Origin: Lysobacter sp. K5869
GTDB lineage: Bacteria > Pseudomonadota > Gammaproteobacteria > Xanthomonadales > Xanthomonadaceae
DNA length: 64,000 nt
Reading direction: 5' to 3'
NCBI RefSeq assembly: GCF_018847975.1
Contig: NZ_CP072597.1
Span: 5,495,001-5,559,000 of the forward strand
The notes beneath the pieces were generated by a model, which saw only the letters and a list, made by a program, of their open reading frames with translations, was not told where the DNA came from and ran no database searches. Both the position numbers and the translations under genes were made by a program. Positions 19,394 through 55,466 of the stretch are shown one piece after another; position 1 is the first letter of the stretch; each line of letters begins with the position of its first letter.

Positions 19394-19831
19394 ATGAACG
19401 ATCCGCTGCCGTCCGCCGCCGCGCCGAGCGCGCCGCCGTCTAAAGACGCCGCCCATCTCGATCTGATCGGCGTCTTCTATTACGTGCTCGCCGCCATCGC
19501 GGCGTTGTTCTCGCTGTTTCCGCTGATCCACGTGACCATGGGCGCGGCGATGATTTCCGGCGCGTTCGACCAGCCCGGCAACGGCGCGCCGCCGCAGATC
19601 GTGGGTTGGCTGTTCCTGGTCATGGGCGCGATCTTCATCCTCGTCGGCATGGCCTTCGCCGCGAGCATGGCGCTCGCCGGCCGACGCTTGCGGCAACGCC
19701 GCAGCTACACGCTGTGCCTGGTGCTGGCCGCGCTGAGCTGCATGTTCATGCCCTTCGGCACCGTAATCGGCGTCTTGGCCTTGGTGCTGCTGGTGAAACC
19801 CGAAGTCAAAGCGATGTTCGCCCCTGCCTGA
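19394..19831 (+). CDS. Small membrane protein, tandem paralogue 1
   Basis: A 145-residue protein I do not recognise. A Pro/Ala/Ser-rich N-terminus is followed by HLDLIGVFYYVLAAIAAL, then two or three more membrane segments separated by a basic loop GRRLRQRRSY, ending in MPFGTVIGVLALVLL. The next gene has the same plan (HLQVLSIFYYILAALGAL, AQRLRQRRGR, PLGTVLGVFTFVVL), so the pair arose by duplication. The genes are 21 bases apart and probably co-transcribed. No function can be assigned. Confidence 0.75.
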   Translation: MNDPLPSAAAPSAPPSKDAAHLDLIGVFYYVLAAIAALFSLFPLIHVTMGAAMISGAFDQPGNGAPPQIVGWLFLVMGAIFILVGMAFAASMALAGRRLRQRRSYTLCLVLAALSCMFMPFGTVIGVLALVLLVKPEVKAMFAPA

Positions 19832-19852
19832 TCCATGCGCCCGGACCACGCC

Positions 19853-20263
19853 ATGAACGCCCCTGCCGCCGACACGACCGCCGCCACCGACGCCAGCCAT
19901 CTGCAGGTGCTGTCGATCTTCTATTACATCCTCGCCGCCCTCGGCGCGCTGTCGCTGCCGGTGGCCGGCGTGATGGCCGCGGTGATGTTGAACATTCCCA
20001 ACCCGAACGCATCGGTGAACTTCCCGGAAGGGCGGGCGTATGCGCTGGGCCTGCTGGCCCTACTGGTGGCGGTCAATGTGGCCTTCGGCGTGGTGTCCTA
20101 CCTCGCCGCCCAGCGCTTGCGCCAACGCCGCGGCCGCAAGCTCTGCCAGATCGCCGCCGCCCTGACCTGCCTGTCGTTTCCGTTGGGCACCGTGCTGGGC
20201 GTGTTCACCTTCGTCGTGCTGAACCGGCCCTCGGTGCGGGCGGCGTTCGACGCGCCGCGCTGA
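19853..20263 (+). CDS. Small membrane protein, tandem paralogue 2
   Basis: A 136-residue paralogue of the preceding protein with the same order of segments: a soluble N-terminus, FYYILAALGAL, a second hydrophobic stretch, the basic RLRQRRGRKLC loop and a C-terminal hydrophobic stretch ending VVLNRPSVRAAF. An ATG 18 bases upstream (19835) would add six residues. Function unknown; it may form a hetero-oligomer with its neighbour. Confidence 0.75.
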   Translation: MNAPAADTTAATDASHLQVLSIFYYILAALGALSLPVAGVMAAVMLNIPNPNASVNFPEGRAYALGLLALLVAVNVAFGVVSYLAAQRLRQRRGRKLCQIAAALTCLSFPLGTVLGVFTFVVLNRPSVRAAFDAPR

Positions 20264-20334: not shown

Positions 20335-20359
20335 ACTAGACAGGTCCACCCGCCTGTCC
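20335..20359 (+). promoter_or_regulatory. Operator copy 1 (phosphonatase-like operon)
   Basis: ACTAGACAGGTC (20335-20346), nine bases, then GTCC (20356-20359). Within it GACAGG and CCTGTC form an inverted repeat with an 8-base spacer. The 3' GTCC at the same distance is shared with the copies at 30099 and 31404. It starts 95 bases before the hydrolase ATG. Binding by the GntR protein encoded at 29313-30074 is an inference. Confidence 0.8.
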
Positions 20360-20429
20360 CCGCCGTGTCATCACCGGGTTGCGCCCGGTGCCCAAGCTGG
20401 AAGCCTGTCCCGCAGCGCCTCCGGCTTCC

Positions 20430-21119
20430 ATGAACTACCGTCTCGCTCTGTTCGATATCGCCGGCACCACCGTGTCGGATCCGGGTTTCGTCGCCGAGGC
20501 CTTCGTCGGCGCGATGACCGCCGCCGGCCATCCCATCGAGGCGGAGACCTGCCGCGCGCTGATGGGCTACCGCAAGCCCGAAGCGATCGCGCGCCTGCTC
20601 GGCGAGTCGGCGACGCCGGCGAAGATCGAGGCGATCCACGACGATTTCGTCGCGCGCATGCTGCGCTGCTACCGCGAGCGGCCCGGCGTGGCGCCGCTGC
20701 CGGGCGCGGAATCGACCTTCGCCCTGCTGCGCGCGCACGGCATCAAGGTCGCGCTGAACACCGGGTTCTCGCGCGACATCGCCGAGGCCATCGTCGCGCG
20801 GTTGGACTGGCACGGCCGCATCGACGCGCTGATCGCCAGCGACGAGGTGCCGCAGGGCCGCCCCGCGCCGCACATGGCCCAGGCGCTGCTGCGCCGCTTC
20901 GGCATCGACGACGCGGCCGCGCTGGTCAAGATCGGCGACACCGAGGTCGACATCGGCGAAGGCCGCAACGCCGGTGCCGGCCTGGTGGTCGCGGTGACCA
21001 CCGGCGCGTTCGCCCGCGCCGAACTGGAGCCGTATCGCCCCGACGCCATCGTCGATTCGCTGTTCGAGCTGCCGGCGCTGCTCGGCATCGACGCCGCCGT
21101 GCGCGACGACGCCGCATGA
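20430..21119 (+). CDS. Phosphonatase-like HAD hydrolase (PhnX-related)
   Basis: A 229-residue HAD-superfamily protein. The N-terminal motif is DIAGTTV with nucleophile Asp9, the DxAGT form peculiar to phosphonoacetaldehyde hydrolase and its sister clade (TIGR03351). Cap residue Lys49, in MGYRKPEAI, aligns with the Schiff-base lysine of PhnX, so C-P bond cleavage of a 2-oxoethylphosphonate is plausible. That sister clade is known to occur without the transaminase PhnW and next to FAD-dependent amine oxidases, as found here. The stop overlaps the transporter start. The operator at 20335 precedes it. Confidence 0.85.
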   Translation: MNYRLALFDIAGTTVSDPGFVAEAFVGAMTAAGHPIEAETCRALMGYRKPEAIARLLGESATPAKIEAIHDDFVARMLRCYRERPGVAPLPGAESTFALLRAHGIKVALNTGFSRDIAEAIVARLDWHGRIDALIASDEVPQGRPAPHMAQALLRRFGIDDAAALVKIGDTEVDIGEGRNAGAGLVVAVTTGAFARAELEPYRPDAIVDSLFELPALLGIDAAVRDDAA

Positions 21120-22405
21120 AAGCGCGCGTTTCCGCCGAGACGCTGCAATCCTGGCGGGTGACCCTGCTCGCCGGCGGCGCGGCGCTGATGGCGTACGCGA
21201 GCATGTACGCGTTCCGCAAGCCGTTCGCCGCGGCCTCGTTCCACGGCCAGCAGTGGTTGGACGTGGACTACAAGGTCTGGCTGGTGGTCGCGCAGATCCT
21301 CGGCTACATGTGCAGCAAGTTCCTCGGCATCGGCGTGATCGGCGGCCTGCGCCGCGAACGCCGCGCGCCGCTGATGCTGGTGTTGATCGGCAGCGCGTGG
21401 CTGGCCTTGCTCGGCTTCGCCGTGGTGCCGGCGCCTTGGAACATCCCGTTCCTGTTCCTCAACGGCCTGCCGCTGGGCATGGTCTGGGGTCTGGTCTTCA
21501 GCTATCTGGAAGGCCGCCGCACCACCGAGGCGATGGGCGCGATCCTGGCGTCGAGCTTCATCATGGCCTCGGGCATCGTCAAAAGCGTCGGCAAGTGGCT
21601 GCTGCTCAGCGGCGTGAACGAATTCTGGATGCCGTTCCTGACCGGCCTGCTGTTCGTGCCGCCGCTGCTGATCGCGCTGCGCCTGCTCGAACGCGTGCCC
21701 GCGCCCGACGCGGCCGACCGCGCCGCGCGCAGCGAGCGCTTGCCGATGAGCCGGGCCGAGCGCTTGGCGTTCGTGCGGCGCTTCCTGCCGGGCTTGGCGC
21801 TGATGATCGGCTGCTATGTCGCGCTGACCGTGGTGCGCGATTTCCGCGACAACTTCGAGGCGGAATTGTTCGCGGACCTCGGCTACGGCAACAACGCCGG
21901 CGTGTTCGCGCTGATCGAAACGCCGGTCGCCTTGGCCGTTCTCGCGTTGACCGCGGGGCTGACGTGGTTCCGCGACAACCTGCGCGGGCTGATGGCGCTG
22001 CACGGATTGATGTTCGCCGGCCTGATGGTCGCCGGCATCGCCACCCTCGCCTACCGCGCCGGCGCGCTGCCGCCGCTGTGGTGGCTGGCCTTGGTCGGCT
22101 TCGGTCTGTATCTGGCCTACGTGCCGTTCAACTGCGTGTTCTACGAACGCTTGATCGCGACCTTCCGCGTCGCCGGCAACGTCGGTTTCCTGATGTACCT
22201 GTCCGATGCCTTCGGCTATCTGGGCAGCGTCGCGGTGCTGCTGGCCAAGGAATTCTCCGGCCTGCAGCTGTCGTGGACCCAGTTCTTCGCCCAGATCGTG
22301 CTCGCGCTGAGCGCGGTCGGCGGCGCCTGCCTGTTGGCTTCGGCCGTGTATTTCCACCACCGCGCCAGCCGCCGCGCCGATGCGCCGGCGCTGGCGCCCG
22401 TCTGA
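21116..22405 (+). CDS. MFS transporter, DUF5690 / organophosphate-antiporter-like
   Basis: A 429-residue major-facilitator protein with about 12 membrane segments. ASMYAFRKPF in the first segment resembles the YxxRKxF motif of organophosphate:phosphate antiporters such as GlpT and UhpT. FLFLNGLPLGMVWGLVFSYLEGRRTTE is typical of the DUF5690 group. It is translationally coupled to the phosphonatase-like hydrolase and followed by the FAD oxidase gene, so import of a phosphonate substrate across the inner membrane is the natural inference; no member I know of has a proven substrate. Confidence 0.8.
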   Translation: MKARVSAETLQSWRVTLLAGGAALMAYASMYAFRKPFAAASFHGQQWLDVDYKVWLVVAQILGYMCSKFLGIGVIGGLRRERRAPLMLVLIGSAWLALLGFAVVPAPWNIPFLFLNGLPLGMVWGLVFSYLEGRRTTEAMGAILASSFIMASGIVKSVGKWLLLSGVNEFWMPFLTGLLFVPPLLIALRLLERVPAPDAADRAARSERLPMSRAERLAFVRRFLPGLALMIGCYVALTVVRDFRDNFEAELFADLGYGNNAGVFALIETPVALAVLALTAGLTWFRDNLRGLMALHGLMFAGLMVAGIATLAYRAGALPPLWWLALVGFGLYLAYVPFNCVFYERLIATFRVAGNVGFLMYLSDAFGYLGSVAVLLAKEFSGLQLSWTQFFAQIVLALSAVGGACLLASAVYFHHRASRRADAPALAPV

Positions 22406-22429
22406 CCGCTTCGACCCACTCATTCCCGC

Positions 22430-23584
22430 ATGAAAACTGATTCCGTACTCGTCGTCGGCGCCGGCATCGTCGGCCTCGCCATCGCCCGCGCGCTCGCCGT
22501 GCGCGGCCACCGCGTCACCGTGCTGGAGCGCTACGACCGCGCGGTCGGCGCCTCGGTGCGCAACTTCGGCATGATCTGGCCGATCGGCGTCACCAACGGC
22601 GCCGCCTACGAGCGCGCGCTGCGCTCGCGCGCGATCTGGCAAGAAGTGATCGACGGCGCGAAGCTGTGGCACGACCCTTGCGGTTCGCTGCACGTGGCCT
22701 ACGCGCAGGACGAATGGGAGGTGCTGGCGCAATACGCCGACGCCAACCGCGCGCTGCGCCCGTGTTCGCTGCTCGGCCGCGACGAGGCCTTGGCGATCTC
22801 GCCGGCCCTGGTCGGCGGCGGCCTGCGCGGCGCGCTGTTCAACCGCGACGAAATGCTGGTCGATCCGCGCGAGGCCCTCGCCGCGCTGCCGGGTTATCTG
22901 CACGAGCGCTACGGCGTCGAATTCCATTGGCGCACGCCGGTCACCGCGGTGGAAACCGGCCGCGTCCATTCCGGCACCCGCCGCTTCGACGCCGACCGCG
23001 TGTTCGTGTGCAGCGGCCCGGAGTTCGAGCAACTGTTCCCGCAGCTCTACGCCGCCGCGCCGCTGACCCGCTGCAAGCTGCAGATGCTGCGGCTGGCGCC
23101 GCCGGCCGGCGATCTGCGCCTGGGCGCGGCGCTGTGCGGCGGCTTGTCGCTGGTGCATTACGCCGGCTTCCAGCAGGCCGCCGACGTGGCGCCGCTGCGC
23201 GCGCGCTATCAAGCGCAGTACGGCGAACTGATCGAGCTGGGCATCCACGTGATGGCCGCGCAGAACGGCCGCGGCGAGATCACCGTCGGCGATTCGCACG
23301 TCTACGCCCACACCCACGATCCGTTCGACGAGCACGCGATCAACGCCCAGGTGCTCGATTACCTGTCCGGCTTCCTGCGCCTGCCCGATCCGCGCCCGAT
23401 CCAGACCTGGCACGGCATCTATCCCAAGCTCACCGACGGCAGCAGCGAATTCGTCGCCGAACCGCTGCCGGGCGTGACCATCGTCAACGCCGTCGGCGGC
23501 GGCGGCCTGGGCATGACCTTGAGCTTCGGGCTGGCCGAGGAGATCGTCGACGGCCGCTACGGCGCGGTGCGGCGCGCGGCCTGA
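22430..23584 (+). CDS. FAD-dependent aminophosphonate oxidase-like protein (TIGR03364 family)
   Basis: A 384-residue DadA/glycine-oxidase-type flavoprotein. The N-terminal dinucleotide fold is VVGAGIVGLAIARALAVRGH with the ERYDRAVGASVRNFGMIWP block of the TIGR03364 group, and the C-terminal FAD motif is NAVGGGGLGMTLSFGLAEEI. This family is known to co-occur with phosphonatase-like hydrolases and is thought to deaminate 2-aminoethylphosphonate-like compounds to the aldehyde that the hydrolase cleaves. It lies 24 bases after the transporter gene, completing a three-gene operon. Confidence 0.85.
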   Translation: MKTDSVLVVGAGIVGLAIARALAVRGHRVTVLERYDRAVGASVRNFGMIWPIGVTNGAAYERALRSRAIWQEVIDGAKLWHDPCGSLHVAYAQDEWEVLAQYADANRALRPCSLLGRDEALAISPALVGGGLRGALFNRDEMLVDPREALAALPGYLHERYGVEFHWRTPVTAVETGRVHSGTRRFDADRVFVCSGPEFEQLFPQLYAAAPLTRCKLQMLRLAPPAGDLRLGAALCGGLSLVHYAGFQQAADVAPLRARYQAQYGELIELGIHVMAAQNGRGEITVGDSHVYAHTHDPFDEHAINAQVLDYLSGFLRLPDPRPIQTWHGIYPKLTDGSSEFVAEPLPGVTIVNAVGGGGLGMTLSFGLAEEIVDGRYGAVRRAA

Positions 23585-23617
23585 GTGCGTCGTCGCGGCT
23601 CGGCGCCGCGATCCTTT

Positions 23618-23653
23618 CGCGGGCCATGGCGGCCTGACCCGCCATGGCCCGCG
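23618..23653. terminator. 15-bp perfect hairpin after the phosphonatase-like operon
   Basis: A 15-base arm (23618-23632) and its exact complement (23639-23653) flank a six-base loop, 33 bases after the oxidase stop. No T-tract follows, so it may be a transcript-stabilising or weak terminating structure. From here to 24106 I see no gene. Confidence 0.55.
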
Positions 23654-24106
23654 TCGTCCGCTCCGCTGGCTCCCCCATGGAGCGGCCGGTACCCGCCGGC
23701 GGGCGCGCTGCGCGCCCGGGCCGACCGCGCGGCGCATCCTTGGCCGACGCGGGACGGGCGGCACCTCCGTGTGCCTTGCTTCGACATCGCCGGTGCTTTC
23801 CGTCCGTGCGGCCCGCTGCTCGGAGCGGGCGTCGGGAAACCGCGGCGACGGCGTTCATTTAGCCCAACGACGGCGCGCATGGCGAGGCCTAAGCCGGGAT
23901 CGAACCGGGACAACGTGGGAAGCTTTCGCGCGCGCGGGCGGCGCGCAACGCGCGGCCGCGAACGAGGTCACGCATGCAGCGTGAATCCCGGCAAATTCGC
24001 TCGGATATCGTCCCGCTTTGTGCCCTGGATTTGCTTGGACGCCGCGCGGCGCGGCTCCTAGGCTGACTGCGTCGCGCTCCCCGCGATGCAACCAGGAGAC
24101 TCACCG

Positions 24107-24640
24107 ATGCGCCCGCTCTTCAAGGGAATGACGATCCAGACCGCGACCGTCGCCACGCTGCTGCTCGCCGCCGCGCTCGGCGCCGGCGACGCGTCCGCTC
24201 ACCAGACCAATCCGCAGTGCTATCTCGACGGCGTGCAGATTCGTCCGGTAGTGGAGTTCCGCTTCACTTCCAAGCAAGTCGCCGACTTCCACGCCGCGCT
24301 GCTGCGCCGCCCGCCGGCGCCGGGCGGCACCTGCCCGGCCGGCAAGGGCGCCGCCGGCGGCATGGTGACGCCGCGCTCGTGCGGTCAGGTCGACGACCAT
24401 TGGGACGTGGCGACCAAGATGGCCGCCGAGTACTGCGCGAAAGTGCAGACCGCCGCGCGCGCGACCACGCCGGTGCCGGTCGCCGAAGTGAACGCCCCGG
24501 ACAGCTATAGGGCCGCCGATCACCATCAAAGCTACACCTACAAAGCCGCCACCCCGACCATGCTGGTGCTGCAAGGCATGTGCGTGATCTGCGAGGTGCC
24601 CGCGGTATCGCCCGCGCCGAAGCAAAAGCGCGGCCGCTGA
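24107..24640 (+). CDS. Secreted cysteine-containing protein of unknown function
   Basis: A 177-residue protein with a signal peptide (ATVATLLLAAALGAGDASA, cleavage before HQTNPQC) and an AGGAG ribosome site eight bases before the ATG. The mature part has six cysteines (in PQCYL, GTCPAG, RSCGQ, EYCAK and CVICE), suggesting disulfides in the periplasm or outside. Two histidine-containing patches (DDHWD, DHHQSY) are present. I recognise no family. It is convergent with the TPR-PAS gene. Confidence 0.7.
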   Translation: MRPLFKGMTIQTATVATLLLAAALGAGDASAHQTNPQCYLDGVQIRPVVEFRFTSKQVADFHAALLRRPPAPGGTCPAGKGAAGGMVTPRSCGQVDDHWDVATKMAAEYCAKVQTAARATTPVPVAEVNAPDSYRAADHHQSYTYKAATPTMLVLQGMCVICEVPAVSPAPKQKRGR

Positions 24641-24665
24641 GCCGCGCCGTCCGCCGCAACGCCGT

Positions 24666-26819
24666 TCACACCAGGGCGTTGCGGCGGGTGTAGGCCAGCA
24701 CCGCGTCGACGTGGCGCTGCAGTTCGCCGCGCACGCTTTCTTCCAGCGCGCATTCGGCCAGCACGTAATAGCCCGAGCGCAGCACGTCGCGCCAACGCGG
24801 TTGGCGCGGCAGCTTGGACAGGCTCAGATACCGCTCCATCGCCCGCGCGCGCAGGCGGCCGTCGTCGACGGTGACGCGCCAGATGCGGCTCTTTTCCGCC
24901 AGCTCCAAGCGGCCCTGGCCGGTGCTGCGCTCCCAGGCTTCGACCACCGCCAGCATCAGTTCGACCAAGGCGCGGCGGAACGAATGGCGCAAGGCTTCGT
25001 CGCCCGGCGCGGCCGGTTCGTCGCCCAATTCGATCGCGTCGGCGGCTCCGGCGGCTCCGGCGGCTTCGACCGCCGCGGGCGCGACAGCCGCGGCGGCGCG
25101 TTGCAGTCCGAGCACGATCGATCCCTCGCCCTGCCCGCTTTCGCTCAGCTGCGCCTGCAAGCGTTCGCCGCCGAACGAGAACGCCAGCGTCTGCGGCGCC
25201 GACGATTCTTCCAAATGCTCCAGCGCTTGGGCGAAGCGGCGCGCGTCCTCGCCGATGAGCAAGTCGCCGAAGCCGCGCCCCGCCACCGGCGCGGCCGCGC
25301 CGGGCTGCACCAGTTCGCTGGCGGCGCGGTTGGCGGCGAGCACTTGCCCGGCGCCGTCGAGCACCAGCACCGCGTCTTCGCGGCTGTCCAGCGCGGCTTG
25401 CAGGCGCGCGCGGTCGACGCCGAGTTCGTCGGCGGCGCGGCGGTAGTAATCGATCTCCTCGTCCAGGCGCGCGCGCCGCGCCGCCTCGGCAACGCGCGCG
25501 CGTTGCTGGCGACGTAGGAAGAACACGGTCACGCCGAGCAGCGCGGCCAAGGCCGAGACCACGGTCAGCCACAGCGCCAGACTGCGCACGCGGTTCTGCG
25601 CGGCCAGCGCGGCGATGGTGCGGTCGCGCTCGGCGGTTTCGAAGCGCAGTTGCAGCCACTTGGTTTCGCGGTCGTAGCGCGCCTCGCGCAGGGCGAGCGC
25701 GGCGGCGTCCGATTCGCGCAGCGCGGCCATCGCCTGCGGCCATTCGCCCAGCGCCTCGTGCGCGGCGGCGAGTTCGGCCAGCAGCGTCGGGCGGTCGCTG
25801 TCGCGCGGCGCCAGCGCGCGCAGCGCGGCGGCGGCGCGGTCGCGCGCGGCGCGCGGCTGGCCGCGCGCCAGGTCCGTGCGCACCGCCTGCAATTGCAGCG
25901 GCGCCGGCACGAGTTCGCCGTCGGCCGCCGACACCGCCTCCAAGCCGCTGTCGACCCAGCGCTGCGCCGCGGCGGCGTCCTCGCGCAGCAGCGCGGCGCG
26001 CGCCAGTTCGGCGTAGGTGCGCTGCAGGTATTTGCGGTTGTCCCGGTTCGCCGCGAATTCGTCGCGCGCTTGCAGCAGCAGCGCTTCGCCGCCGCGCAAG
26101 TCGCCGCTGTCGAGCAACGCGGCGCCCCAGGATTCCAGGGTGTGCGCGGCTTCGACGAGGTTGCCGGCGGCGCGGTGGATCTCGCGGGCCTGCCGGTAAT
26201 AGCGCACCGCGCCGGACAGATCGCCCTGGCCGCGATAGATTTCGGCGAGGTTGTTGAGCGGACGCGCGACCTCGTTGCCGGGCAGGCCGCGCAACAGGCC
26301 GAGGCTGGCGGTCTGCGCCTGCACCGCGCCGCGCACATCGCCCAGGCGCAGCAGCGCGGCGCCGATGTTGCCCCAGCTCTTGCCTTGGGCGAGCCGGTTC
26401 TCCGAGCGCTCGGCCAGGGCCAGCGCGCGCTTGAACCAACCCAGCGCTTCCACCGGGCATTCGCTGTGGAATTCGAGCACGCCGCGTTGGCGCGCCAGCT
26501 CCTGCGCGACCGGCGGCGCCGGCGCGGCGCCGGCGGTCGCTTCGGCGCAGTCGAGCGCGCGCGCGGCATCGGCGTAGCGCGCGCCGTCCTGGTCCGCGCG
26601 ACTGCGCTTGTACAACTGCGCCAGCAGCGCCGACTCGTCGCCGCCGGGTTCCAGGCCGTAGTCGCGCAAGCATTGCGCCGGATCCGGCAGCACCGCGGCC
26701 GCGCTGGCGCACACCGGCGCGGGCGTCGCCACGACGTTGCCGCCCGCCACGACCGCGCCGCTGAGCGACCACAACACCGCCGACACCATCGCCCCGCGCC
26801 CGATCCGATCCTTAGCCAC
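24666..26819 (-). CDS. TPR-PAS membrane sensor protein with unknown output domain
   Basis: A 717-residue protein. After an N-terminal signal or anchor (AMVSAVLWSLSGAVVAGG) comes a periplasmic stretch of tetratricopeptide-like repeats (about residues 40-400, for example SWGNIGAALLRLGDVRGAVQAQ). A membrane segment (ALWLTVVSALAALLGVTVFFL, about 411-436), a short coiled coil and a PAS domain follow (about 470-570, ALDSREDAVLVLDGAGQVLAANRAA). The last 150 residues include LELAEKSRIWRVTVDDGRLRARAMERYL, which I cannot match to a kinase, cyclase or DNA-binding fold. The GTG at 26819 has GGGAG upstream; an upstream frame to 26888 exists. Confidence 0.75.
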   Translation of the reverse strand: MAKDRIGRGAMVSAVLWSLSGAVVAGGNVVATPAPVCASAAAVLPDPAQCLRDYGLEPGGDESALLAQLYKRSRADQDGARYADAARALDCAEATAGAAPAPPVAQELARQRGVLEFHSECPVEALGWFKRALALAERSENRLAQGKSWGNIGAALLRLGDVRGAVQAQTASLGLLRGLPGNEVARPLNNLAEIYRGQGDLSGAVRYYRQAREIHRAAGNLVEAAHTLESWGAALLDSGDLRGGEALLLQARDEFAANRDNRKYLQRTYAELARAALLREDAAAAQRWVDSGLEAVSAADGELVPAPLQLQAVRTDLARGQPRAARDRAAAALRALAPRDSDRPTLLAELAAAHEALGEWPQAMAALRESDAAALALREARYDRETKWLQLRFETAERDRTIAALAAQNRVRSLALWLTVVSALAALLGVTVFFLRRQQRARVAEAARRARLDEEIDYYRRAADELGVDRARLQAALDSREDAVLVLDGAGQVLAANRAASELVQPGAAAPVAGRGFGDLLIGEDARRFAQALEHLEESSAPQTLAFSFGGERLQAQLSESGQGEGSIVLGLQRAAAAVAPAAVEAAGAAGAADAIELGDEPAAPGDEALRHSFRRALVELMLAVVEAWERSTGQGRLELAEKSRIWRVTVDDGRLRARAMERYLSLSKLPRQPRWRDVLRSGYYVLAECALEESVRGELQRHVDAVLAYTRRNALV

Positions 26820-27038
26820 TGCCCGCTCCCGTTTTCCCCTGACGGAAGCTTTGCCGATCCCGGCGCGAAGCGGAAGCGAGGCGGGCACGCGCGATCGCCA
26901 CAGAAACCTGAACCAACGCGAGCGAAATCACACTCGGCATGGACTTCAATCGCAATCGCGCGAACCGGGGCATCGCGCCCCGATCCGATGCCGCCGCGCG
27001 CCGCCGCGCCGCAACCTCCGGCGCGGCGGCGCACGTTC

Positions 27039-29099
27039 TCAGCGCTGCAGACTCAAGCTCAGGTTGTCGGCGAAGGCGTCGCCTTGCGTGTTGCCGTGCT
27101 CGAAACGGATCTCGACTTCGGCCCATTGCGCGTCGGCCGGCACCGCGCCGCCGAGTTCGTAGCGCTGCATCGCGCCGTTGCCGCCGGCCGGCGCCAATTC
27201 GAACGCGGTGCCGGCGTACAGCGCTTGCAGCCCCGGCCAGCTGCCGGCGGTGATCGGCGCCGGATAGCCGGCGTCGGCGCGATCGAGCGTGCGGTCGTAG
27301 CGCAGATACTGGCCCGGCTTGAACAGATAGGACTTGCTGTTGGCGAAGTTCAGCGCGCCGGCCCAATGCGCCGGCCATTCGCCGGTGCCCGGCCAGGTGG
27401 ATTCGGACAGGTAGCCCGGGTAGTAGCGGTCGGCGCGATCCAGATCGAGGTTGTAGCGGATGTATTGGTCGCGCTTGAAGAAGTACAGCTGGCTGCGGCT
27501 GAACATCAACACCGCGTCGAGATCGCGCGCGCCGCCGGCGAACTTCTCCAGGCCCGGCCAGTTCCCGGCGATCGGCAACGGATAGCCGGCATCGGCGCTG
27601 CGCGTGGCCAGATCGACGCGGATGTATTGGCTGCCCTTGAAGAAATACGCCTTGCCGCTGCCGCCATCGAAGGCTGCGTCGATGTCGCGCGCGCCGCCGT
27701 CGAACTTGTCCAGCCCCGTCCAGTTGCTGGCGATGGATTGCGGATAACCGGTGGCGACGCGGTCGGCGGCGATGTCGTAGCGGTAGTAGTCGCCGCCGCG
27801 GAACACGTGGCCGACGCTGCCGCTGCCGAAGCTGGCCATGCGCCGCTCGTCGTAGAAACGCAGGAACACCCGCGCGCGGTGGCCGCTGGACGCGCCCAGA
27901 TCGGCCGACAGCGCGAAGCGCACGCCGCTCAGATCGAGCCCGCGCAAATCCACGCGCTGGCTCAGGGTGTTGCTGCGCGACGCGTCGCGGCCGATGAACA
28001 GGTTCGCGCCGCCGCCGGCCGGACGCGCCGGCAGCCACGAATACTGCGTGTAATCCACGACCTGCCCGCCGCCGCCCTTGCGCCAACCGGGCACGTCGCT
28101 GTCGTAAGCGCGGTCGCGGCGGCCGACCGAATATTCGGCGTCGCCGTTGGCGAGCAGTTCGGCGCCGAACGCCGGCGCCGCCTCGCGCGCGGGCCGCTGC
28201 ATCGGCCGGCCGTCGAGTCCGGCGGGCACGGCCAGGCCCAGATGCGCGAGGATGCTGGGCGCGACGTCGACCTGACGCGGCGCCAACCGCAACGGTTCCA
28301 GCCCGAGCTTGGGCACCGACGCGCCGCTGAAGGCGATCAGGGTCTTGCGGTCGTCCGGCGTGTTGTGGCCGTGATGCACCGAGCCGCCATGGTCGGTGCC
28401 GACGACGATCAGCCAATCCTCGTCGGCGTAGCTCGGCCGCGCGCGCACCGCCGCCATCAGCTTGCCGATCGAGGCATCGACGCCGCGGATCGCCGCGGTG
28501 TAGCCGTCGGCGTCGCGATTGAAATAGGTGCCGGCGTGGCCGGCGCCGTCGGGTTCGTTGAAGTCCAGCAGCAGCGCGTCCGGGCCGGCCGGCTGCGCCA
28601 GCAGTTCCAGCGCCTTGGCCAGCACCTTGGCGTCGCTGCCGGCGTTGAAGACGGTATCCACGCCGGTCCACGGCAGCTGCGTGGCCAACGGCGACCACGC
28701 CACCGCGACCGCGGTGTTCTTGTCCGGCGCGGCGCGTTCGATCCGGGTCAGCACGTCGGGCCAGTCGACGTAATTCTTGCCGCTGAAGCTGTTGTCGTAG
28801 ACGCCGTGCTTGTCGCGTTCCACGCCGGTGAACAGCGAGGACCAGCCGGTGCCGCTGATCGCGGTGTCGGCGGTGAGGCCTTCGCGGCCGAGATAGCCGT
28901 CGGCGACCAGCGCGTCGAGGTTCGGCGTGGCGACCGCGCCGTAAACGTCGCCGCGGAAACCGTCGGTGCCGATGAACAACACCTTCGGCGTCTTGGCGGC
29001 GGCGGGCGCACAGACCGCCAAGGCCAGCGCGAGCGCGGCGCTGAGCGGACGAAGGACGGTGCGGGTAACAGTGCGAACGATCGGGCGATGCGACGGCAT
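27039..29099 (-). CDS. Secreted alkaline-phosphatase-superfamily hydrolase with hemopexin propeller
   Basis: A 686-residue exported protein: signal peptide to about residue 35, then an NPP/alkaline-phosphatase-type catalytic domain. This has metal ligands in GTDGFRGD (Asp46), a nucleophile region SGTGWSS (about 82-88), DFNEPDGAGH and GTDHGGSVHHGH. From about residue 311 a jelly-roll-like module (ELLANGDAEYS) begins. At about 425-640 four hemopexin-type blades follow, each with YFFKGxQYIRxD-like and GYPxxIxxNWPGL-like motifs. The final 40 residues (QWAEVEIRFEHGN to DNLSLSL) read like the closing strands of the jelly roll. Likely hydrolyses a phospho- or sulfo-ester outside the cytoplasm; substrate unknown. 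Confidence 0.82.
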   Translation of the reverse strand: MPSHRPIVRTVTRTVLRPLSAALALALAVCAPAAAKTPKVLFIGTDGFRGDVYGAVATPNLDALVADGYLGREGLTADTAISGTGWSSLFTGVERDKHGVYDNSFSGKNYVDWPDVLTRIERAAPDKNTAVAVAWSPLATQLPWTGVDTVFNAGSDAKVLAKALELLAQPAGPDALLLDFNEPDGAGHAGTYFNRDADGYTAAIRGVDASIGKLMAAVRARPSYADEDWLIVVGTDHGGSVHHGHNTPDDRKTLIAFSGASVPKLGLEPLRLAPRQVDVAPSILAHLGLAVPAGLDGRPMQRPAREAAPAFGAELLANGDAEYSVGRRDRAYDSDVPGWRKGGGGQVVDYTQYSWLPARPAGGGANLFIGRDASRSNTLSQRVDLRGLDLSGVRFALSADLGASSGHRARVFLRFYDERRMASFGSGSVGHVFRGGDYYRYDIAADRVATGYPQSIASNWTGLDKFDGGARDIDAAFDGGSGKAYFFKGSQYIRVDLATRSADAGYPLPIAGNWPGLEKFAGGARDLDAVLMFSRSQLYFFKRDQYIRYNLDLDRADRYYPGYLSESTWPGTGEWPAHWAGALNFANSKSYLFKPGQYLRYDRTLDRADAGYPAPITAGSWPGLQALYAGTAFELAPAGGNGAMQRYELGGAVPADAQWAEVEIRFEHGNTQGDAFADNLSLSLQR

Positions 29100-29312
29100 A
29101 CGGCGTTCCTGCTGCGGATGGGAGCGCGCAGGCTAGAGGCCGATTGCATCGCCGGATGTGACCCGATCCGCGCAGCGGCGCGGGGTTGGACGGCATCGGT
29201 CACGATTCGGTCATCGTGCGATGAAAACGCGTGGATTCGATGCACATACGAAGCACATCGCTCCGTCGCATCGCGCTGAAACCGACGGCGCGCGCGTTCC
29301 GCGCCGCCGCGC

Positions 29313-30074
29313 TCAGCCTTCGTTGCTCACCATCAACTGCACCCAATCGCCGGCGAACGACGTCACCCCGAACTGCACCGGCGCGCCCTGCGGATCGACG
29401 TTGAGCGAATGCACGCACAGCACCGGCCGGCGCGTGGATTGGCCGAGCACGCGCGCGACCTCGGCGCTGGGCAGGCGCGCCATCACCGCGGTGTGCTTGC
29501 GCAGGTAATCGCGCACGCCGAACTCGGCCAGGGTACGGGTCACCGACAATTGTTCGGCGAACACTTTGTCCAGGCCGGGAAAACGCGCGGCCGGAAACCA
29601 CGCCTCGCTGTGGTCGACGGTGCGGCCTTCGACTTCGCTGGAATACACCACGCGGTGCACGCGTTCGCCCGCGAGCAACCCGAGCGAGCGCGCCACCGCG
29701 CGCGGCGGCGACTGGGTGCCGGTTTCGATCAGGCGATAGCGGCTTTCCACGTTGAGATCGTGCATCGCCTTGCCGAAGCGGGTGCGCCGGCCGATCGGGT
29801 AGTGGTACGGATGCTCCTGCACGAAGCTGCCGCGCCCGGTTTCGGTGCGCAGGAAGCCGCGCTCCTCCAACGCCTCGATCGCGCGGCGCACGGTATGGCG
29901 GTTGACGCCGAAGCGCTTGGCCAGATCGAACGCGGACGGCAGCTTGTCGCCTTCGCTGAGCGCGCCGGCGCGGATGTCCTTGAGCAGCGCGGTTTCGATC
30001 TGCTGCCACAGCGGCATCGCGGCGTCGCGCTGGGCCGGATCGGCGGCGGCGACCGCGGTAGCGGGGGATGTCAT
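29313..30074 (-). CDS. GntR/HutC-family (UTRA) transcriptional regulator, PhnF-like
   Basis: A 253-residue regulator. The N-terminal winged helix (MPLWQQIETALLKDIRAG, LAKRFGVNRHTVRRAIEALEERG) is followed by a UTRA effector domain (TGRGSFVQE, RVHRVVYSSEVEGRTVDHSEAWFP). The layout matches PhnF-type repressors of phosphonate genes. The ATG at 30074 has GGAGG four bases upstream. The gene is divergent from phnM, and an operator copy lies 25 bases before its start, so autoregulation is expected. It is the best candidate to bind all three ACTAGACAGGTC sites. Confidence 0.87.
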   Translation of the reverse strand: MTSPATAVAAADPAQRDAAMPLWQQIETALLKDIRAGALSEGDKLPSAFDLAKRFGVNRHTVRRAIEALEERGFLRTETGRGSFVQEHPYHYPIGRRTRFGKAMHDLNVESRYRLIETGTQSPPRAVARSLGLLAGERVHRVVYSSEVEGRTVDHSEAWFPAARFPGLDKVFAEQLSVTRTLAEFGVRDYLRKHTAVMARLPSAEVARVLGQSTRRPVLCVHSLNVDPQGAPVQFGVTSFAGDWVQLMVSNEG

Positions 30075-30098
30075 ACAACCTCCATCTGCGCTTGGTTC

Positions 30099-30123
30099 AC
30101 TAGACAGGTCGCATCGCGCGTCC
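30099..30123 (+). promoter_or_regulatory. Operator copy 2 (gntR-phnM divergent region)
   Basis: ACTAGACAGGTC (30099-30110), nine bases, then GTCC (30120-30123), identical in layout to the copies at 20335 and 31404. It lies in the 115-bp gap between the divergent regulator and phnM-like gene, 25 bases from the former start and starting 91 bases before the latter. Confidence 0.82.
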
Positions 30124-30189
30124 GTCGTCATGAGAACCCGCCGGCGTTGCATGACGGTGACAACCGCCCAGGCCTCGACCGGAACCGCA

Positions 30190-31332
30190 ATGACCGTTGC
30201 CGAATTACTGCTCGATAACGCCCGACTGGTCCTGCCCGACCGCGTCGTCCACGGCCACCTGCGCGTCGCCGGCGGGCGCGTGCTGGAGTTCGGCGAAGGC
30301 CGCCTGCGTTCGCCGTCGGCGCTGGATTGCGGCGGCGATTACCTGCTGCCGGGACTGGTCGAGCTGCACACCGACAACCTGGAAAAACACCTGCTGCCGC
30401 GCCCCGGCGCGCACTGGCCCGCGGCCGCGGCGGTGCGCGCGCACGATGCGCAGTTGCTCGCGTCCGGCATCACCACCGCGCTCAACGCGATCTCGGTCGG
30501 CGAAGAAGAAGCCGAGGAAGCGGTCGAGCCGCGCGGCGTGCTGGCCGCGCTGGCGCAGGCGCGCGAGGACGGCGCGCTGCGCATCGAACACGGCGTGCAC
30601 CTGCGCTGCGAGCTGCCCTGCCCGGATCTGCCGCAGCGCCTGCAACCGCTGCTGGACACGCCGCAGCTGCGCTTGCTGTCGCTGATGGACCACACGCCCG
30701 GGCAGCGCCAGTTCCACGATCTGGAGCGTTACCGCGCCTACGCCGCGCGCCACGGCAACGTCCGCGACGACGGCGCGTTCCAGGCCCAGGTGCGCCGCCT
30801 GCAAGACCTGCAGCACCGCCACGCCGCCGCGCACCGCCGCGTCGTGCTGGCGCTGGCGCGCGAACGCGGGCTGCCGCTGGCCAGCCACGACGATTCCGAT
30901 CTGGCCCACGTCGCCGAAGCGGTCGAAGCCGGCGCGCGCATCGCCGAATTCCCGGTCAACCTCGCCACCGCGCGCGCCGCGCGCGCGGCCGGGCTGAGCG
31001 TGCTGGCCGGCGCGCCGAATCTGGTCCGCGGCGGCTCGCACAGCGGCAACGTCGCCGCGATCGATCTCGCCCGCGCCGGCGCGCTCGACGCGCTGTCGTC
31101 GGATTACGTGCCGGCGAGCCTGCTGCTGGCCGCGTTCCAGCTCGGCGAGTGGGACAGCATCGGGCTGCCGCGCGCGGTGGCGATGGTGACCCGCACGCCG
31201 GCGCGCGCGGCCGGCTTCGAGGACCGCGGCGAACTCGCCGCCGGCCAGCGCGCCGACCTGCTGCGCGTGCGCGTGGTGCGCGGCTTGCCGCTGCTCGACG
31301 CGGCGTGGGTGGCGGGCGAGCGCCGGTATTGA
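30190..31332 (+). CDS. phnM: PhnM-like amidohydrolase (ribose methylphosphonate triphosphate diphosphatase family)
   Basis: A 380-residue amidohydrolase-superfamily protein, the length of E. coli PhnM (378). The family block LVELHTDNLEKHLLPRPGAHWP and the later LASHDDSD (about residues 231-238) carry probable metal ligands, and SSDYVPASLLLAAFQL is typical of PhnM. In the C-P lyase pathway PhnM removes pyrophosphate from ribose-1-methylphosphonate-5-triphosphate. No phnG-L genes are visible, so either those lie elsewhere or this copy has another substrate. An in-frame ATG at 30151 is an alternative start. Confidence 0.85.
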   Translation: MTVAELLLDNARLVLPDRVVHGHLRVAGGRVLEFGEGRLRSPSALDCGGDYLLPGLVELHTDNLEKHLLPRPGAHWPAAAAVRAHDAQLLASGITTALNAISVGEEEAEEAVEPRGVLAALAQAREDGALRIEHGVHLRCELPCPDLPQRLQPLLDTPQLRLLSLMDHTPGQRQFHDLERYRAYAARHGNVRDDGAFQAQVRRLQDLQHRHAAAHRRVVLALARERGLPLASHDDSDLAHVAEAVEAGARIAEFPVNLATARAARAAGLSVLAGAPNLVRGGSHSGNVAAIDLARAGALDALSSDYVPASLLLAAFQLGEWDSIGLPRAVAMVTRTPARAAGFEDRGELAAGQRADLLRVRVVRGLPLLDAAWVAGERRY

Positions 31333-31403
31333 GCCGCGACGGCACCACTGGGATCGATACCGCCCGGCTCGACACCACCTGAATCGGCGCCGCCCGCCGA
31401 TCC

Positions 31404-31428
31404 ACTAGACAGGTCGCCCCGGCAGTCC
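31404..31428 (+). promoter_or_regulatory. Operator copy 3 (TonB-dependent receptor promoter)
   Basis: ACTAGACAGGTC (31404-31415), nine bases, then GTCC (31425-31428), in the 176-bp gap between phnM and the receptor gene, starting 105 bases before the receptor ATG. Its presence suggests the receptor has its own promoter under the same control as phnM and the phosphonatase-like operon. Confidence 0.82.
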
Positions 31429-31508
31429 GCACCGCGCGCGCGGGCCTTCATATCGCCTCGCTGTAATGCCGCCCCATCGCCGCCGCGGCGCGCATTCCAC
31501 GAGATCCC

Positions 31509-33758
31509 ATGAACGTCCTCACCCGCACTCCTCTGGCTTCGGCCCTGTTCGCCGCGCTGCTGCCCCTGGCCGGCCACGCCGCCGCGCCCGTCGCCGACGC
31601 CGCGGCCGCCGGCGCGCCGCTCGAGCACGGCGACGCCGCCACGCTCGACACCATCTCGGTGATCGGCCATCGCGACACCCGCCAGGTCCAGCACGTCGGT
31701 CAGGTCGAACTGCAATCGGTCGCGCCGGGCACCAACCCGGTCAAGGTGCTGGAGAAGCTGCCCGGCGTGCATTTCGTCAGCTCCGACCCGTGGGGCAGCT
31801 ACGAATGGTCGAACCGCATCGCCATCCGCGGCTTCGCTCAGAACCAGCTCGGCTACGCGCTCGACGACATCCCGCTCGGCGACAACAGCTACGCCAACAA
31901 CAACGGCCTCTCGCCGAACCGCGCGATCCTGCCGGAGAACGTGGCCGAACTCGAACTGGCGCAAGGCGCCGGCGCGCTGCGCATTCCCTCCACCAGCAAC
32001 CTCGGCGGCGCGTTGCTGCTGCATTCCTCCGACCCGGCCGCCGAGTTCGGCGCGCGCGCAGGATTCGCGTTCGGCGACAACGCCACCCTGCGCAGCTTCG
32101 TGCGCGTGGACACCGGCGACCTCGGCGGCTTCAGCGCCTACGTCTCGGGCATGCGCAACGAGGCCGACCGCTGGAAAGGCGCGGGCGTGCAGGAACAGCA
32201 GCAGTTCAACGGCAAGGCCGTGTACCAGTGGGACAAGGGCCGCGTCGCGCTGTGGCTGTCGAACTCGCGCCGCAACGAAACCGACGACCCGGACCTCTCG
32301 CTCGACCTGATCCGCCGCTGCGGCTACGACTGGGACAACTACGCGCCGGACTGGCAGCGCGCGCTCGACGCCGCCAACGGCCGCTTCAGCGGCTGCGTCA
32401 AGACCAAGGACGACGCGTACTACCTCGCGCGCGGCCTGCGCAACGACGATCTGGCCGCGCTGTCGGGCGAATTCGACCTCAGCGACGCGCTGCGCCTCAA
32501 CGCCACCGGCTATTACCACCGCAACGAAGGCCAGGGCCACTGGTTCACGCCCTACATCAGTTCGCCGACGATTCCGATGGCGCTGCGCATCACCAGCTAC
32601 GACATCGAACGCAGCGGCTTCAACGCGCGGCTGAGCTACGCCGTCGGCAACCACACGCTGGAAGGCGGCGTGTGGCTGGAGGACAGCGTGCACGGCGCCG
32701 GCCGCAGCTTCGTCAACATCGCCGGCCCCATCGATGATCAGCGCTTCTTCGACCGCAGCGAGTTCGCCCAGCGCCTGTTCCGCCAGCGCTTCGACACCCG
32801 CACCCGCCAGTGGTATCTGCAGGACACGATGCGCTTCTTCGACGAACGCCTGACCGTCAACGCCGGTTTCAAGGGCCAGGACGTGGTCACCGACGGCACG
32901 GTCGTCGTCGCCGGCCGCGCCGGCGGGCGCCTGAGCGCGCGCGACGGCTTCCTGCCGCAGCTCGGCGCGTCGTGGCAGTTGAACGAGCGCAGCGACGTGT
33001 TCGCCAACTACGCCGAGAATCAGGCCGCGTTCCGCCCCGGCGTCAACGGCGCGTGGTCGCTGACCCAGGCCTCGTTCGACCTCAGCCGCGCCACCGCCAA
33101 GCCCGAGCAGTCCAAGACCCTGGAACTGGGCTGGCGCTACGGCGACGAGCATTACCAACTTTCCACCACGCTGTACGGCGTGAACTTCGACGACCGCCAG
33201 TTGGTGATCGTGCCCTGCCCCGGCGTGGTCAGTTGCCCGAACCAGTTCGCCAACGTCGGCAAGGCGCGCACGCTCGGCGGCGAAGTCGCGTTCGTGTGGA
33301 CGCCGAACGAACACCTGCGCTGGCTGACCAGCTATGCGTACAACGATTCGCAGTACCGCTCGAATTACGTCACCGGCGGCAAGTTGGTGGAGGTGCGCGG
33401 CAAGCAGATGGTCGACACGCCGAAGCAGTTGTTCGCGACCGAACTGAGCTACGGCATCGGCGAGGTCGAACTGCGGTTGGGCGGCAAGTACACCGGCAAG
33501 CGCTACTACACCTACAGCAACGACGCCGGCACCGACGCGTTCTGGCTGTGGGACGCGGGGGTGAGCTGGCAGAAGCGCGATCTCGGCCAGATCAAGTCGC
33601 TGCGGGTCGGGCTCAACGTCTACAACCTGCTCGACAAGACCTACATCGCCACGCTCGGCAGCAACGGCTTCCGCGATTACGACCCGCAGGGCACGTTCCA
33701 GACCCTGCTGACCGGCGCGCCGCGGCAGTGGTTCTTGTCGGTGGACGCGCAGTTCTGA
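31509..33758 (+). CDS. TonB-dependent outer-membrane receptor
   Basis: A 749-residue receptor with signal peptide (to about residue 25), TonB box DTISVIG (47-53), plug domain (VLEKLPGVHF, IAIRGF, ELAQGAGALRIPSTSNLGGAL) and a 22-strand-type barrel ending in the aromatic terminal residue of SVDAQF. The barrel closest resembles siderophore or ferric-citrate-type receptors, which does not fix the ligand. Sharing an operator with PhnM and phosphonatase-like genes suggests a phosphonate, or a phosphonate-containing natural product, as ligand. That is inference from regulation and position. Confidence 0.9.
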   Translation: MNVLTRTPLASALFAALLPLAGHAAAPVADAAAAGAPLEHGDAATLDTISVIGHRDTRQVQHVGQVELQSVAPGTNPVKVLEKLPGVHFVSSDPWGSYEWSNRIAIRGFAQNQLGYALDDIPLGDNSYANNNGLSPNRAILPENVAELELAQGAGALRIPSTSNLGGALLLHSSDPAAEFGARAGFAFGDNATLRSFVRVDTGDLGGFSAYVSGMRNEADRWKGAGVQEQQQFNGKAVYQWDKGRVALWLSNSRRNETDDPDLSLDLIRRCGYDWDNYAPDWQRALDAANGRFSGCVKTKDDAYYLARGLRNDDLAALSGEFDLSDALRLNATGYYHRNEGQGHWFTPYISSPTIPMALRITSYDIERSGFNARLSYAVGNHTLEGGVWLEDSVHGAGRSFVNIAGPIDDQRFFDRSEFAQRLFRQRFDTRTRQWYLQDTMRFFDERLTVNAGFKGQDVVTDGTVVVAGRAGGRLSARDGFLPQLGASWQLNERSDVFANYAENQAAFRPGVNGAWSLTQASFDLSRATAKPEQSKTLELGWRYGDEHYQLSTTLYGVNFDDRQLVIVPCPGVVSCPNQFANVGKARTLGGEVAFVWTPNEHLRWLTSYAYNDSQYRSNYVTGGKLVEVRGKQMVDTPKQLFATELSYGIGEVELRLGGKYTGKRYYTYSNDAGTDAFWLWDAGVSWQKRDLGQIKSLRVGLNVYNLLDKTYIATLGSNGFRDYDPQGTFQTLLTGAPRQWFLSVDAQF

Positions 33759-54104: not shown

Positions 54105-55466
54105 ATGGCCGAAGCCGTCCGCCACGACAAAACCGCACGTCAGCTGCGCCTGCTTTCCGATGCGCTCGACAGCGGCCGTCTGGGGCCGGTTCGCCGCCTG
54201 GTCAACACCCTCTCCCCCGCCGAGATCGGCAACCTGCTCGAATCGCTGCCGCCCGGCAAGCGCCAGGTGGTGTGGGGGCTGGTCGATCCCGAGGACGACG
54301 GCGAGGTGCTGGTCCACGTCGGCGAGGAAGTGCGCGAGAGCCTGCTCGCGGACATGGACCCCGACGAAATCGTCGCCGCGGTCGAAGACCTCGACATCGA
54401 CGACTTGGCCGATCTGGTCGAGGACCTGCCCGACACGGTCATCGACGAAGTGCTCAAGTCGATGGACCGCGACAACCGCGAGCGGCTCGAGCAGGTCCTG
54501 TCCTACCCGGAAGACACCGCCGGCCGCCTGATGAACCCCGACGTGGTGACGGTGCGCGCCGACACCACGATCGACGTGGTCCTGCGCTACCTGCGCCTGC
54601 GCGGCGAGCTGCCCGAACACACCGACCACCTCTACGTGGTCAGCCGCCGCCACCAATACCTGGGCCGCATCGCCCTGGCCGCGCTGCTGACCCACGAGCC
54701 CGGCACCCCGATCAACAAGCTGGTCGACGACGAACAGCCGGCCATCGACGTCGGCGAGACCGCCGGCGAAGTCGCCCGCCAGTTCTCCGACCACGACTGG
54801 ATCAGCGCGCCGGTCGTGGACGACAACAACATCCTGCTCGGCCGCATCACCATCGACGACGTGGTCGACATCATCCGCGAAGAGGCCGAGCACCAGGCCT
54901 TGAGCGCGGCCGGCCTGGACGAGGACGAAGACCTGTTCAGCCCGGTCCGGCGCGCGTTCCGGCGCCGTCTGATCTGGCTCAGCGTCAACCTGTGCACGGC
55001 CTTCCTCGCCGCCAGCGTGGTCGGCCAGTTCGAGGACTCCATCGCCAAGCTGGTGGCGCTGGCCGCGCTGATGCCGATCGTCGCCGGCATGGGCGGCAAC
55101 GCCGGCACCCAGGTGCTGGCGCTGATGATCCGCGGCCTCGCGCTCGGCCAGATCGGCGCCTCCAACGTGTGGACGCTGCTGCGCAAGGAGTTGTCGGTCG
55201 CGCTGATCAACGGCCTGTGCCTCGGCGTCGGCCTGGGCCTGATCGTGCTGATCTGGTTCCGCCAACCGGGCCTGTCGTTCGTGATCGGCACCGCGCTGAC
55301 CATCAACCTGCTCACCGCCGCCGCCGGCGGCGTGCTGGTCCCGATCACCCTCAAGCGCCTGGGCTTCGACCCGGCCCTGGCCGGCGGCGTGATTCTGACC
55401 ACGCTGACCGACGTGATGGGGTTCTTGAGCTTCCTGGGTTTGGCGACGTTGATTTTGTTGCATTGA
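54105..55466 (+). CDS. mgtE: Magnesium transporter MgtE
   Basis: Mg2+-gated channel/transporter. 453 residues: an N-terminal acidic helical domain (VEDLDIDDLADLVEDLPDTV), two CBS domains (LMNPDVVTVRADTTI, GRITIDDVVDIIREEAEHQ) and about five C-terminal membrane segments including ALMPIVAGMGGNAGTQVLALMIRGLA. AGGAA lies seven bases before the ATG at 54105. In related genomes it follows ptsHI directly. Confidence 0.94.
   Translation: MAEAVRHDKTARQLRLLSDALDSGRLGPVRRLVNTLSPAEIGNLLESLPPGKRQVVWGLVDPEDDGEVLVHVGEEVRESLLADMDPDEIVAAVEDLDIDDLADLVEDLPDTVIDEVLKSMDRDNRERLEQVLSYPEDTAGRLMNPDVVTVRADTTIDVVLRYLRLRGELPEHTDHLYVVSRRHQYLGRIALAALLTHEPGTPINKLVDDEQPAIDVGETAGEVARQFSDHDWISAPVVDDNNILLGRITIDDVVDIIREEAEHQALSAAGLDEDEDLFSPVRRAFRRRLIWLSVNLCTAFLAASVVGQFEDSIAKLVALAALMPIVAGMGGNAGTQVLALMIRGLALGQIGASNVWTLLRKELSVALINGLCLGVGLGLIVLIWFRQPGLSFVIGTALTINLLTAAAGGVLVPITLKRLGFDPALAGGVILTTLTDVMGFLSFLGLATLILLH

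Follow-up and report, generated by a model that had tools for sequence, protein, structure and literature searches.

Putative operators of a HutC-type PhnF regulator at a phosphonate locus of Lysobacter sp. K5869

The window analyzed here is a stretch of 64,000 nucleotides from Lysobacter sp. K5869 (contig NZ_CP072597.1, positions 5,495,001 to 5,559,000), numbered from its first letter. It carries a block of genes related to phosphonate use, among them phnF, which encodes a regulator of the GntR/HutC-UTRA type. Three copies of a 12-mer, ACTAGACAGGTC, stand before the genes of this block and are regarded as probable operators of PhnF. The features concerned are the following.

20335..20346, plus strand: putative operator 1, ACTAGACAGGTC, before the hydrolase operon, with a weak second element CCTGTCC at 20353-20359
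20354..20371, plus strand: probable Pho box CTGTCCC-CGCC-GTGTCAT (11/14 positions, 0/300 shuffles), overlapping the GTCC of copy 1
20430..21119, plus strand: PhnX-like HAD hydrolase (TIGR03351, 200.4 bits, below the 218.9 cut-off)
21116..22405, plus strand: DUF5690 membrane protein, a presumed permease (PF18943, 538.2 bits)
22430..23584, plus strand: flavin adenine dinucleotide (FAD) oxidoreductase of TIGR03364, PbfD/HpnW-type (405.9 bits, cut-off 285.1)
29313..30074, minus strand: PhnF, GntR/HutC-UTRA regulator (TIGR02325, 233.9 bits, cut-off 156.8; GntR and UTRA domains)
30099..30110, plus strand: putative operator 2, between phnF and phnM
30190..31332, plus strand: orphan PhnM (TIGR02318, 433.7 bits, cut-off 390.55)
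31404..31415, plus strand: putative operator 3, before the TonB receptor gene, with GTCC at 31425-31428
31509..33758, plus strand: TonB-dependent receptor (plug and barrel domains; TIGR01783, 115.5 bits, below 223.5)

The 12-mer is letter-perfect in all three copies and is followed at the same distance by GTCC, so that the 25-bp pattern ACTAGACAGGTC-N9-GTCC recurs exactly at 20335-20359, 30099-30123 and 31404-31428, always on the plus strand. The pattern ends 70 bp before the ATG of the hydrolase gene, 66 bp before that of phnM and 80 bp before that of the TonB receptor gene, and operator 2 lies 24 bp from the start codon of phnF. Copy 1 also contains an inverted repeat, GACAGG (20339-20344) and CCTGTC (20353-20358). 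When up to three mismatches are allowed, the window yields a single extra match, at 54917 with three mismatches, and 100 dinucleotide shuffles of the window gave a mean of 0.19 matches at this threshold, with none reaching four. The first-pass annotation of this DNA had described the exact copies, their constant GTCC, distances of 66-80 bp to the start codons, the inverted repeat of copy 1 and the lack of a further copy in the window, all of which the window scan reproduces. Its view that three chance copies would be very unlikely is likewise supported, both by the shuffles and by a scan of the whole genome (5,968,034 bases), where ACTAGACAGGTC occurs three times, only at these promoters, and the reversed control not at all. 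A shorter 9-mer, CTAGACAGG, occurs four times in this genome vs. 73 times for its reversed control, and three of the four are the sites described above. The fourth copy is at G000:C1:1681124, with an open frame on the minus strand starting 90 bp away.

The distribution of the 12-mer follows that of the regulator. PhnF is found at E ≤1e-40 in 10 of 20 Lysobacter genomes, and exactly these 10 carry ACTAGACAGGTC, which was not found in any of the 10 genus genomes without PhnF. Among 149 genomes of the family, five have a PhnF match below 1e-100, while weaker GntR matches occur in most others; the 11-mer ACTAGACAGGT is present in 5/5 of the former vs. 3/144 of the rest. The site, with at most one mismatch, stands at each of the three promoters in all 10 Lysobacter loci. 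The original annotation had named co-occurrence in relatives and conservation at orthologous promoters among its tests; within the genus the site occurs only where PhnF is present, and conservation is seen in both Lysobacter and Stenotrophomonas.

A scan of genome contigs supplied 11 loci, 10 of them from close relatives (4 Lysobacter, 5 Stenotrophomonas and 1 Rudaea). In Stenotrophomonas, the sites lie at the hydrolase operon and between phnF and phnM, and in four loci (L088, L089, L091 and L082) also before a TonB receptor that is not orthologous to that of the window (BLASTP E 0.012; TIGR01782, 549.6 bits). The Rudaea locus has a site before a third receptor, with E values of 0.15 to the window receptor and 0.001 to the Stenotrophomonas receptor. 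A search of 398 genomes across the order found PhnF at E ≤1e-30 in 36, and 31 of these belong to one further family (f2), which includes Rudaea. All 31 f2 loci were taken, at 19.5 kb each, giving a set of 46 distinct loci once L092 had been omitted as a duplicate of L082.

Promoters lying within these stretches were scored for the core CTAGAC or its complement GTCTAG. In Lysobacter, the core is present at 10/10 promoters each of operon 1, phnF and the receptor; the corresponding counts in Stenotrophomonas are 5/5, 5/5 and 4/4. The f2 loci fall into those with genes for carbon-phosphorus (C-P) lyase, where the operon 1 count is that of permease promoters (11/17 for operon 1, 20/20 for phnF and 12/17 for the receptor), and those with the flavoenzyme (10/10, 0/10 and 4/10, respectively). 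In the C-P lyase type, the phnF promoter holds an overlapping double operator, GTCTAGTTATCTAGAC, in 14/20 loci (e.g., L158, L159 and L162), and TAGTTATCTA occurs in 20/20 stretches. Over the 46 loci, 120 cores lie in 51,462 bp of regulon promoters (2.33/kb) vs. 15 in 844,369 bp elsewhere (0.018/kb), a density about 130 times higher, with promoter widths that were chosen after earlier promoter results had been seen. Random 350-bp windows from 47 loci contained the core in 401 of 9400 draws. One locus stands apart: L186 has a diverged PhnF (46%) beside a TonB receptor of the Lysobacter kind (63%), and its stretch yielded no PhnM, permease, flavoenzyme, C-P lyase or CTAGAC core (phnF 0/1, receptor 0/1).

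The core also agrees with what is described for this regulator subfamily. HutC operators obey the rule GTMTAKAC (PMC4494728), and CTAGAC corresponds to the right arm of a palindrome of this type, GTCTAGAC. In the NagR complex with GTGGTCTAGACCAC, Arg48 reads G-4 and Arg38 reads G-5 (PMC4333415). The equivalent of Arg48, in helix 3, is arginine in 46/46 PhnF proteins, and that of Arg38 is arginine in 0/46, with F, Q, H, L or G instead. If the Arg38 contact is lost, an A rather than a C after CTAGAC is to be expected; A occupies this position in 30/30 Lysobacter and 14/14 Stenotrophomonas sites, and in 51/66 and 16/19 f2 sites. Full GTCTAGAC occurs at nine sites in 7/31 f2 loci and at none in Lysobacter or Stenotrophomonas. 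All 30 Lysobacter sites have the right arm alone of the GT...AC pair; they would function as HutC operators do, though with a single canonical arm. A palindrome centered on CTAG was ruled out for Lysobacter by the A that precedes CTAG in 30/30 sites. In DasR, the arginines that hold the phosphate are Arg142 and Arg144 (PMC4918961). These fall on Tyr144 and Ser146 of the window PhnF (counted by hand on the alignment), and the effector of PhnF is therefore probably not a sugar phosphate.

Since the site is confined within the genus to genomes with PhnF, is kept at orthologous promoters and before dissimilar receptors, and matches the HutC rule, the GntR/UTRA protein at 29313-30074 is very probably its binder. 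The explanation that we consider probable is that the three sites are operators of this neighboring HutC-type PhnF, which would repress the regulon. The first-pass proposal that the GntR/UTRA protein controls phosphonate uptake and cleavage through these sites agrees with the comparative tests, all of them made on sequence; its inclusion of GTCC as a constant part of the site did not hold up. Several observations weigh against operator function under PhnF repression. The Lysobacter sites have A before CTAG in 30/30 cases and lack the left GT arm, and because each locus is inherited as a block, the co-occurrence counts are not independent. The core is missing before phnF in all 10 flavoenzyme f2 loci and before 6/10 of their receptors, as well as from 6/17 permease and 5/17 receptor promoters of the C-P lyase type and from L186. 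The late choice of promoter widths bears on the density estimate in the same sense, and a location some 60-105 bp ahead of the start codons of the structural genes would also suit an activator.

The best of the alternatives, though an unlikely one, is that PhnF binds the sites and represses itself while activating the structural operons, with the sites perhaps located upstream of the promoters. Distances of 66-80 bp to the structural start codons, yet only 24 bp to that of phnF, fit such an arrangement, and a TGTAAT at 31462 would, by eye, place operator 3 near -70. HutC regulators are, however, mostly repressors. The only PhnF that the review PMC10574752 names, that of M. smegmatis, is also a repressor. 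It is considerably less likely that the sites are bound by another transcription factor, whose gene lies elsewhere. Such a factor would account for PhnF loci without the core (L186 and the phnF promoters of 10 f2 loci), and assignment of PhnF as the binder comes from sequence comparison; against it, the 12-mer is missing from 10/10 genus genomes without PhnF, loci that have PhnF in common but not the hydrolase and flavoenzyme still carry the core before phnF, the permease gene and the receptor gene, and the sites match the HutC rule. That the repeats arose by chance, or were left behind by an element that spread and have no regulatory function, is scarcely credible: the sequence is short and GTCC is not kept at phnM, but the 12-mer is confined to three sites in the genome, survives at orthologous promoters while the flanks differ, and its core is about 130-fold more frequent per kb in the promoters of the regulon than outside them.

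For PhnF as repressor, we infer the following scheme. PhnF would repress phnF and phnM, the hydrolase-permease-oxidoreductase operon and the TonB receptor gene. The receptor and the DUF5690 permease would import an aminophosphonate, and this compound or its product would bind the UTRA domain and release PhnF from its sites. The PbfD-type flavoenzyme may then oxidize the aminophosphonate to phosphonoacetaldehyde, which the PhnX-like enzyme would convert to acetaldehyde and phosphate. Operator 1 abuts the probable Pho box, and full expression of the hydrolase operon would accordingly be predicted to need both phosphate starvation, through PhoB, and release of PhnF.

The second half of the 25-bp pattern behaves differently from the core. 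In aligned relatives, close kin included (16 hydrolase, 14 receptor and 15 phnM/phnF rows), GTCC stands at the fixed distance in 14/16 hydrolase and 10/14 receptor rows but in only 2/15 phnM/phnF rows, and GTC in 15/16, 13/14 and 2/15, respectively. By comparison, CTAGACAGGT is present in 15/16 hydrolase, 10/14 receptor and 15/15 phnM rows, and CCTGTC in 9/16 hydrolase rows and in none of the receptor or phnM rows. The bipartite operator of the first-pass annotation therefore stands in so far as GTCC is kept at hydrolase and receptor promoters, and falls as a general design: at 2/15 rows, the GTCC at phnM is probably a coincidence, and a fixed GTCC half was rejected as a constant operator part. 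Inverted pairs of sites are visible by eye in three Stenotrophomonas receptor promoters (22 bp from CTAG to CTAG) and in Rudaea (21 bp), and in other promoters the inverted second copy at 21-22 bp is degenerate. These pairs suggest that GTCC is the trace of a second, inverted half-site GTCTAG, with the Rudaea offset one base shorter. Two other readings of the 12-mer, as a Pho half-box and as a -35 box (TAGACA), were discarded by eye: a partner at 11 bp is lacking, and at phnM the spacing to the next conserved block is variable.

The Pho box consensus consists of two CTGTCAT-like 7-mers spaced 4 bp apart. Matches were tested in 14 chosen loci of the 46, with 300 shuffles each. The hydrolase promoters match at 11-12 of 14 positions, a score reached by 0/300 shuffles in the window, L077, L080, L089, L082 and L169 and by 7/300 in L073, i.e., by none in 6/7 tested Lysobacter, Stenotrophomonas and Rudaea hydrolase promoters. 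A Pho box overlapping GTCC at the hydrolase promoter is regarded as probable. Weighing against this are the f2 loci L176 and L185, where the matches are not significant (74 and 46 of 300 shuffles), and the count of matches of 11/14 quality genome-wide, 83 vs. 41 for the reversed control. Permease promoters without a nearby hydrolase gave 1/300 in L161 and 2/300 in L167, and 206, 146 and 198 of 300 in L157, L165 and L158. In the window, the matches at phnM and at the receptor were reached by 11 and 29 of 300 shuffles; at phnM, the values were 8, 4 and 12 of 300 in L077, L073 and L082, and the window and L073 matches include the phnF start region. Genome-wide, the best match precedes a gene for a response regulator (L096), another precedes the gene of an M2 peptidase (L101), and the pstS loci have only four-mismatch matches, so the case for the box is built on conservation at the hydrolase promoter rather than on known Pho genes. 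Three Pho-box-like matches on the minus strand (G000:C1:5587949, 5588156 and 5588363) lie exactly 207 bp apart in an apparent repeat array outside the window.

As for the enzymes, PhnX uses a nucleophilic Asp and a Schiff-base Lys. Both are retained when the hydrolase at 20430 is aligned to phosphonoacetaldehyde hydrolase, and the Lys is the position at which structures 2iof and 2ioh differ (K/R). The protein scores 116.9 bits against TIGR01422 (PhnX), under the cut-off of 220, and its nearest profile, TIGR03351, is also under cut-off. PMC10590968 files PbfD1 of A. baumannii under TIGR03364, the family of the window flavoenzyme. PbfD enzymes convert N-methyl-2-aminoethylphosphonate (N-methyl-AEP) to phosphonoacetaldehyde and one also oxidizes AEP (PMC10590968 and PMC10574752); such a PbfD may stand in for PhnW where phnW is absent (PMC10574752). 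No PhnW match (TIGR02326) exceeded the cut-off in the 20 genus genomes, all of which gave weak matches of 23-31 bits, and control genomes also remained under the cut-off. Comparison of PhnM and the TonB receptor with solved structures gave no match.

PhnJ was found in 0/20 genus genomes and was recovered from the E. coli control, other C-P lyase subunits not having been searched genome-wide. With PhnJ absent and PhnW not over its cut-off, phnM is an orphan in these genomes; the earlier label is upheld by a TIGR02318 score above cut-off, but the C-P lyase partner PhnJ is missing from all 20. Within the fetched stretches at the PhnF locus, as distinct from whole f2 genomes, 20 of the 46 loci have a C-P lyase core and 25 the flavoenzyme (23 with the hydrolase); none has both and one, L186, has neither. 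Pfam confirms PhnH, PhnI and PhnJ in L159, together with an ABC protein at the place of PhnL. The other components are more constant, with PhnM in 44/46 loci (not in L083, cut by a contig end, or L186), the permease in 42/46 (not in L162, L178, L179 or L186) and a receptor in 42/46 (not in L083, L160, L167 or L168). The 42 receptors comprise 23 of the Rudaea, 15 of the Lysobacter and 4 of the Stenotrophomonas kind. Unrooted trees built from 46 PhnF and 44 PhnM rows each separate the two module types by a single well-supported branch (100/99 and 100/100, respectively), and L186 and L169 sit on long branches. PhnM has 98 invariant columns across 44 rows. Comparison of the window with three relatives in Lysobacter gives PhnM a ratio of nonsynonymous to synonymous substitution rates of 0.16-0.29, inside the range of the neighboring genes (0.06-0.37). 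By this sequence evidence, the orphan PhnM is kept under purifying selection and is no decaying relic. Tentatively, PhnF may govern a regulon whose frame consists of the regulator, PhnM, the DUF5690 permease and a TonB receptor that has been replaced repeatedly, and which accommodates either a C-P lyase core or a PbfD-type flavoenzyme module, usually with a PhnX-like hydrolase. PhnM would therefore have a role apart from C-P lyase; it might, for example, trim a nucleotide- or ester-linked aminophosphonate that enters intact via the TonB receptor.

Relative to known systems, the sites resemble the dre-sites of NagR and DasR (GTMTAKAC) in having a core equal to the right arm of GTCTAGAC, a regulator of the same subfamily and an autoregulatory position beside phnF. 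They differ in that Lysobacter and Stenotrophomonas sites have no left GT and A rather than C as the next base, and PhnF has no Arg38 equivalent. A TIGR02325 regulator is shared with PhnF-C-P lyase operons, and the same regulator group stands beside phnHIJL in 20/46 loci; in contrast, the window regulon is without C-P lyase and has PhnM alone. The Salmonella phnRSTUVWX regulator is of the GntR type. This system, as described in PMC11203657, is similar in combining phosphate-starvation control with a dedicated regulator gene, and different in its GntR subgroup and its genes. The pairing of a TIGR03364 flavoenzyme with a phosphonatase in an operon without PhnW recalls the PbfD/HpnW-PhnX clusters of PMC10590968 and PMC11203657, whereas the Achromobacter PbfD cluster, as described there, has a LysR regulator and PhnSTU transport in place of PhnF, DUF5690 and a TonB receptor. 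The putative operator would be a further member of the HutC type, in a regulon that combines a TonB receptor, a DUF5690 protein, an orphan PhnM and an exchangeable cleavage module. Among the open-licence papers listed, none dealt by title or abstract start with this regulon or with TonB-dependent phosphonate uptake, and the searched library held no paper with DUF5690 or PF18943. For bacteria that lack PhnJ, the comparison provides a concrete candidate operator of a PhnF together with its regulon, links phosphonate use to DUF5690 and to TonB receptors of three kinds, and makes a C-P-lyase-independent role directly testable in an orphan PhnM under purifying selection.

Between the flavoenzyme gene and phnF in Lysobacter lie genes for a hypothetical protein, a TPR/PAS protein and a phosphodiesterase with hemopexin repeats (24086-29099). 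They are not found at this place in Stenotrophomonas and Rudaea, L080 and L081 are without the phosphodiesterase, and no 12-mer at ≤2 mismatches was found near them in 10 Lysobacter loci. With these genes missing there in Stenotrophomonas and Rudaea and with no nearby site, they were dropped as regulon members. On the other side, small paralogous genes at 19394-20263 adjoin the hydrolase operon, with one to three recognizable copies in relatives.

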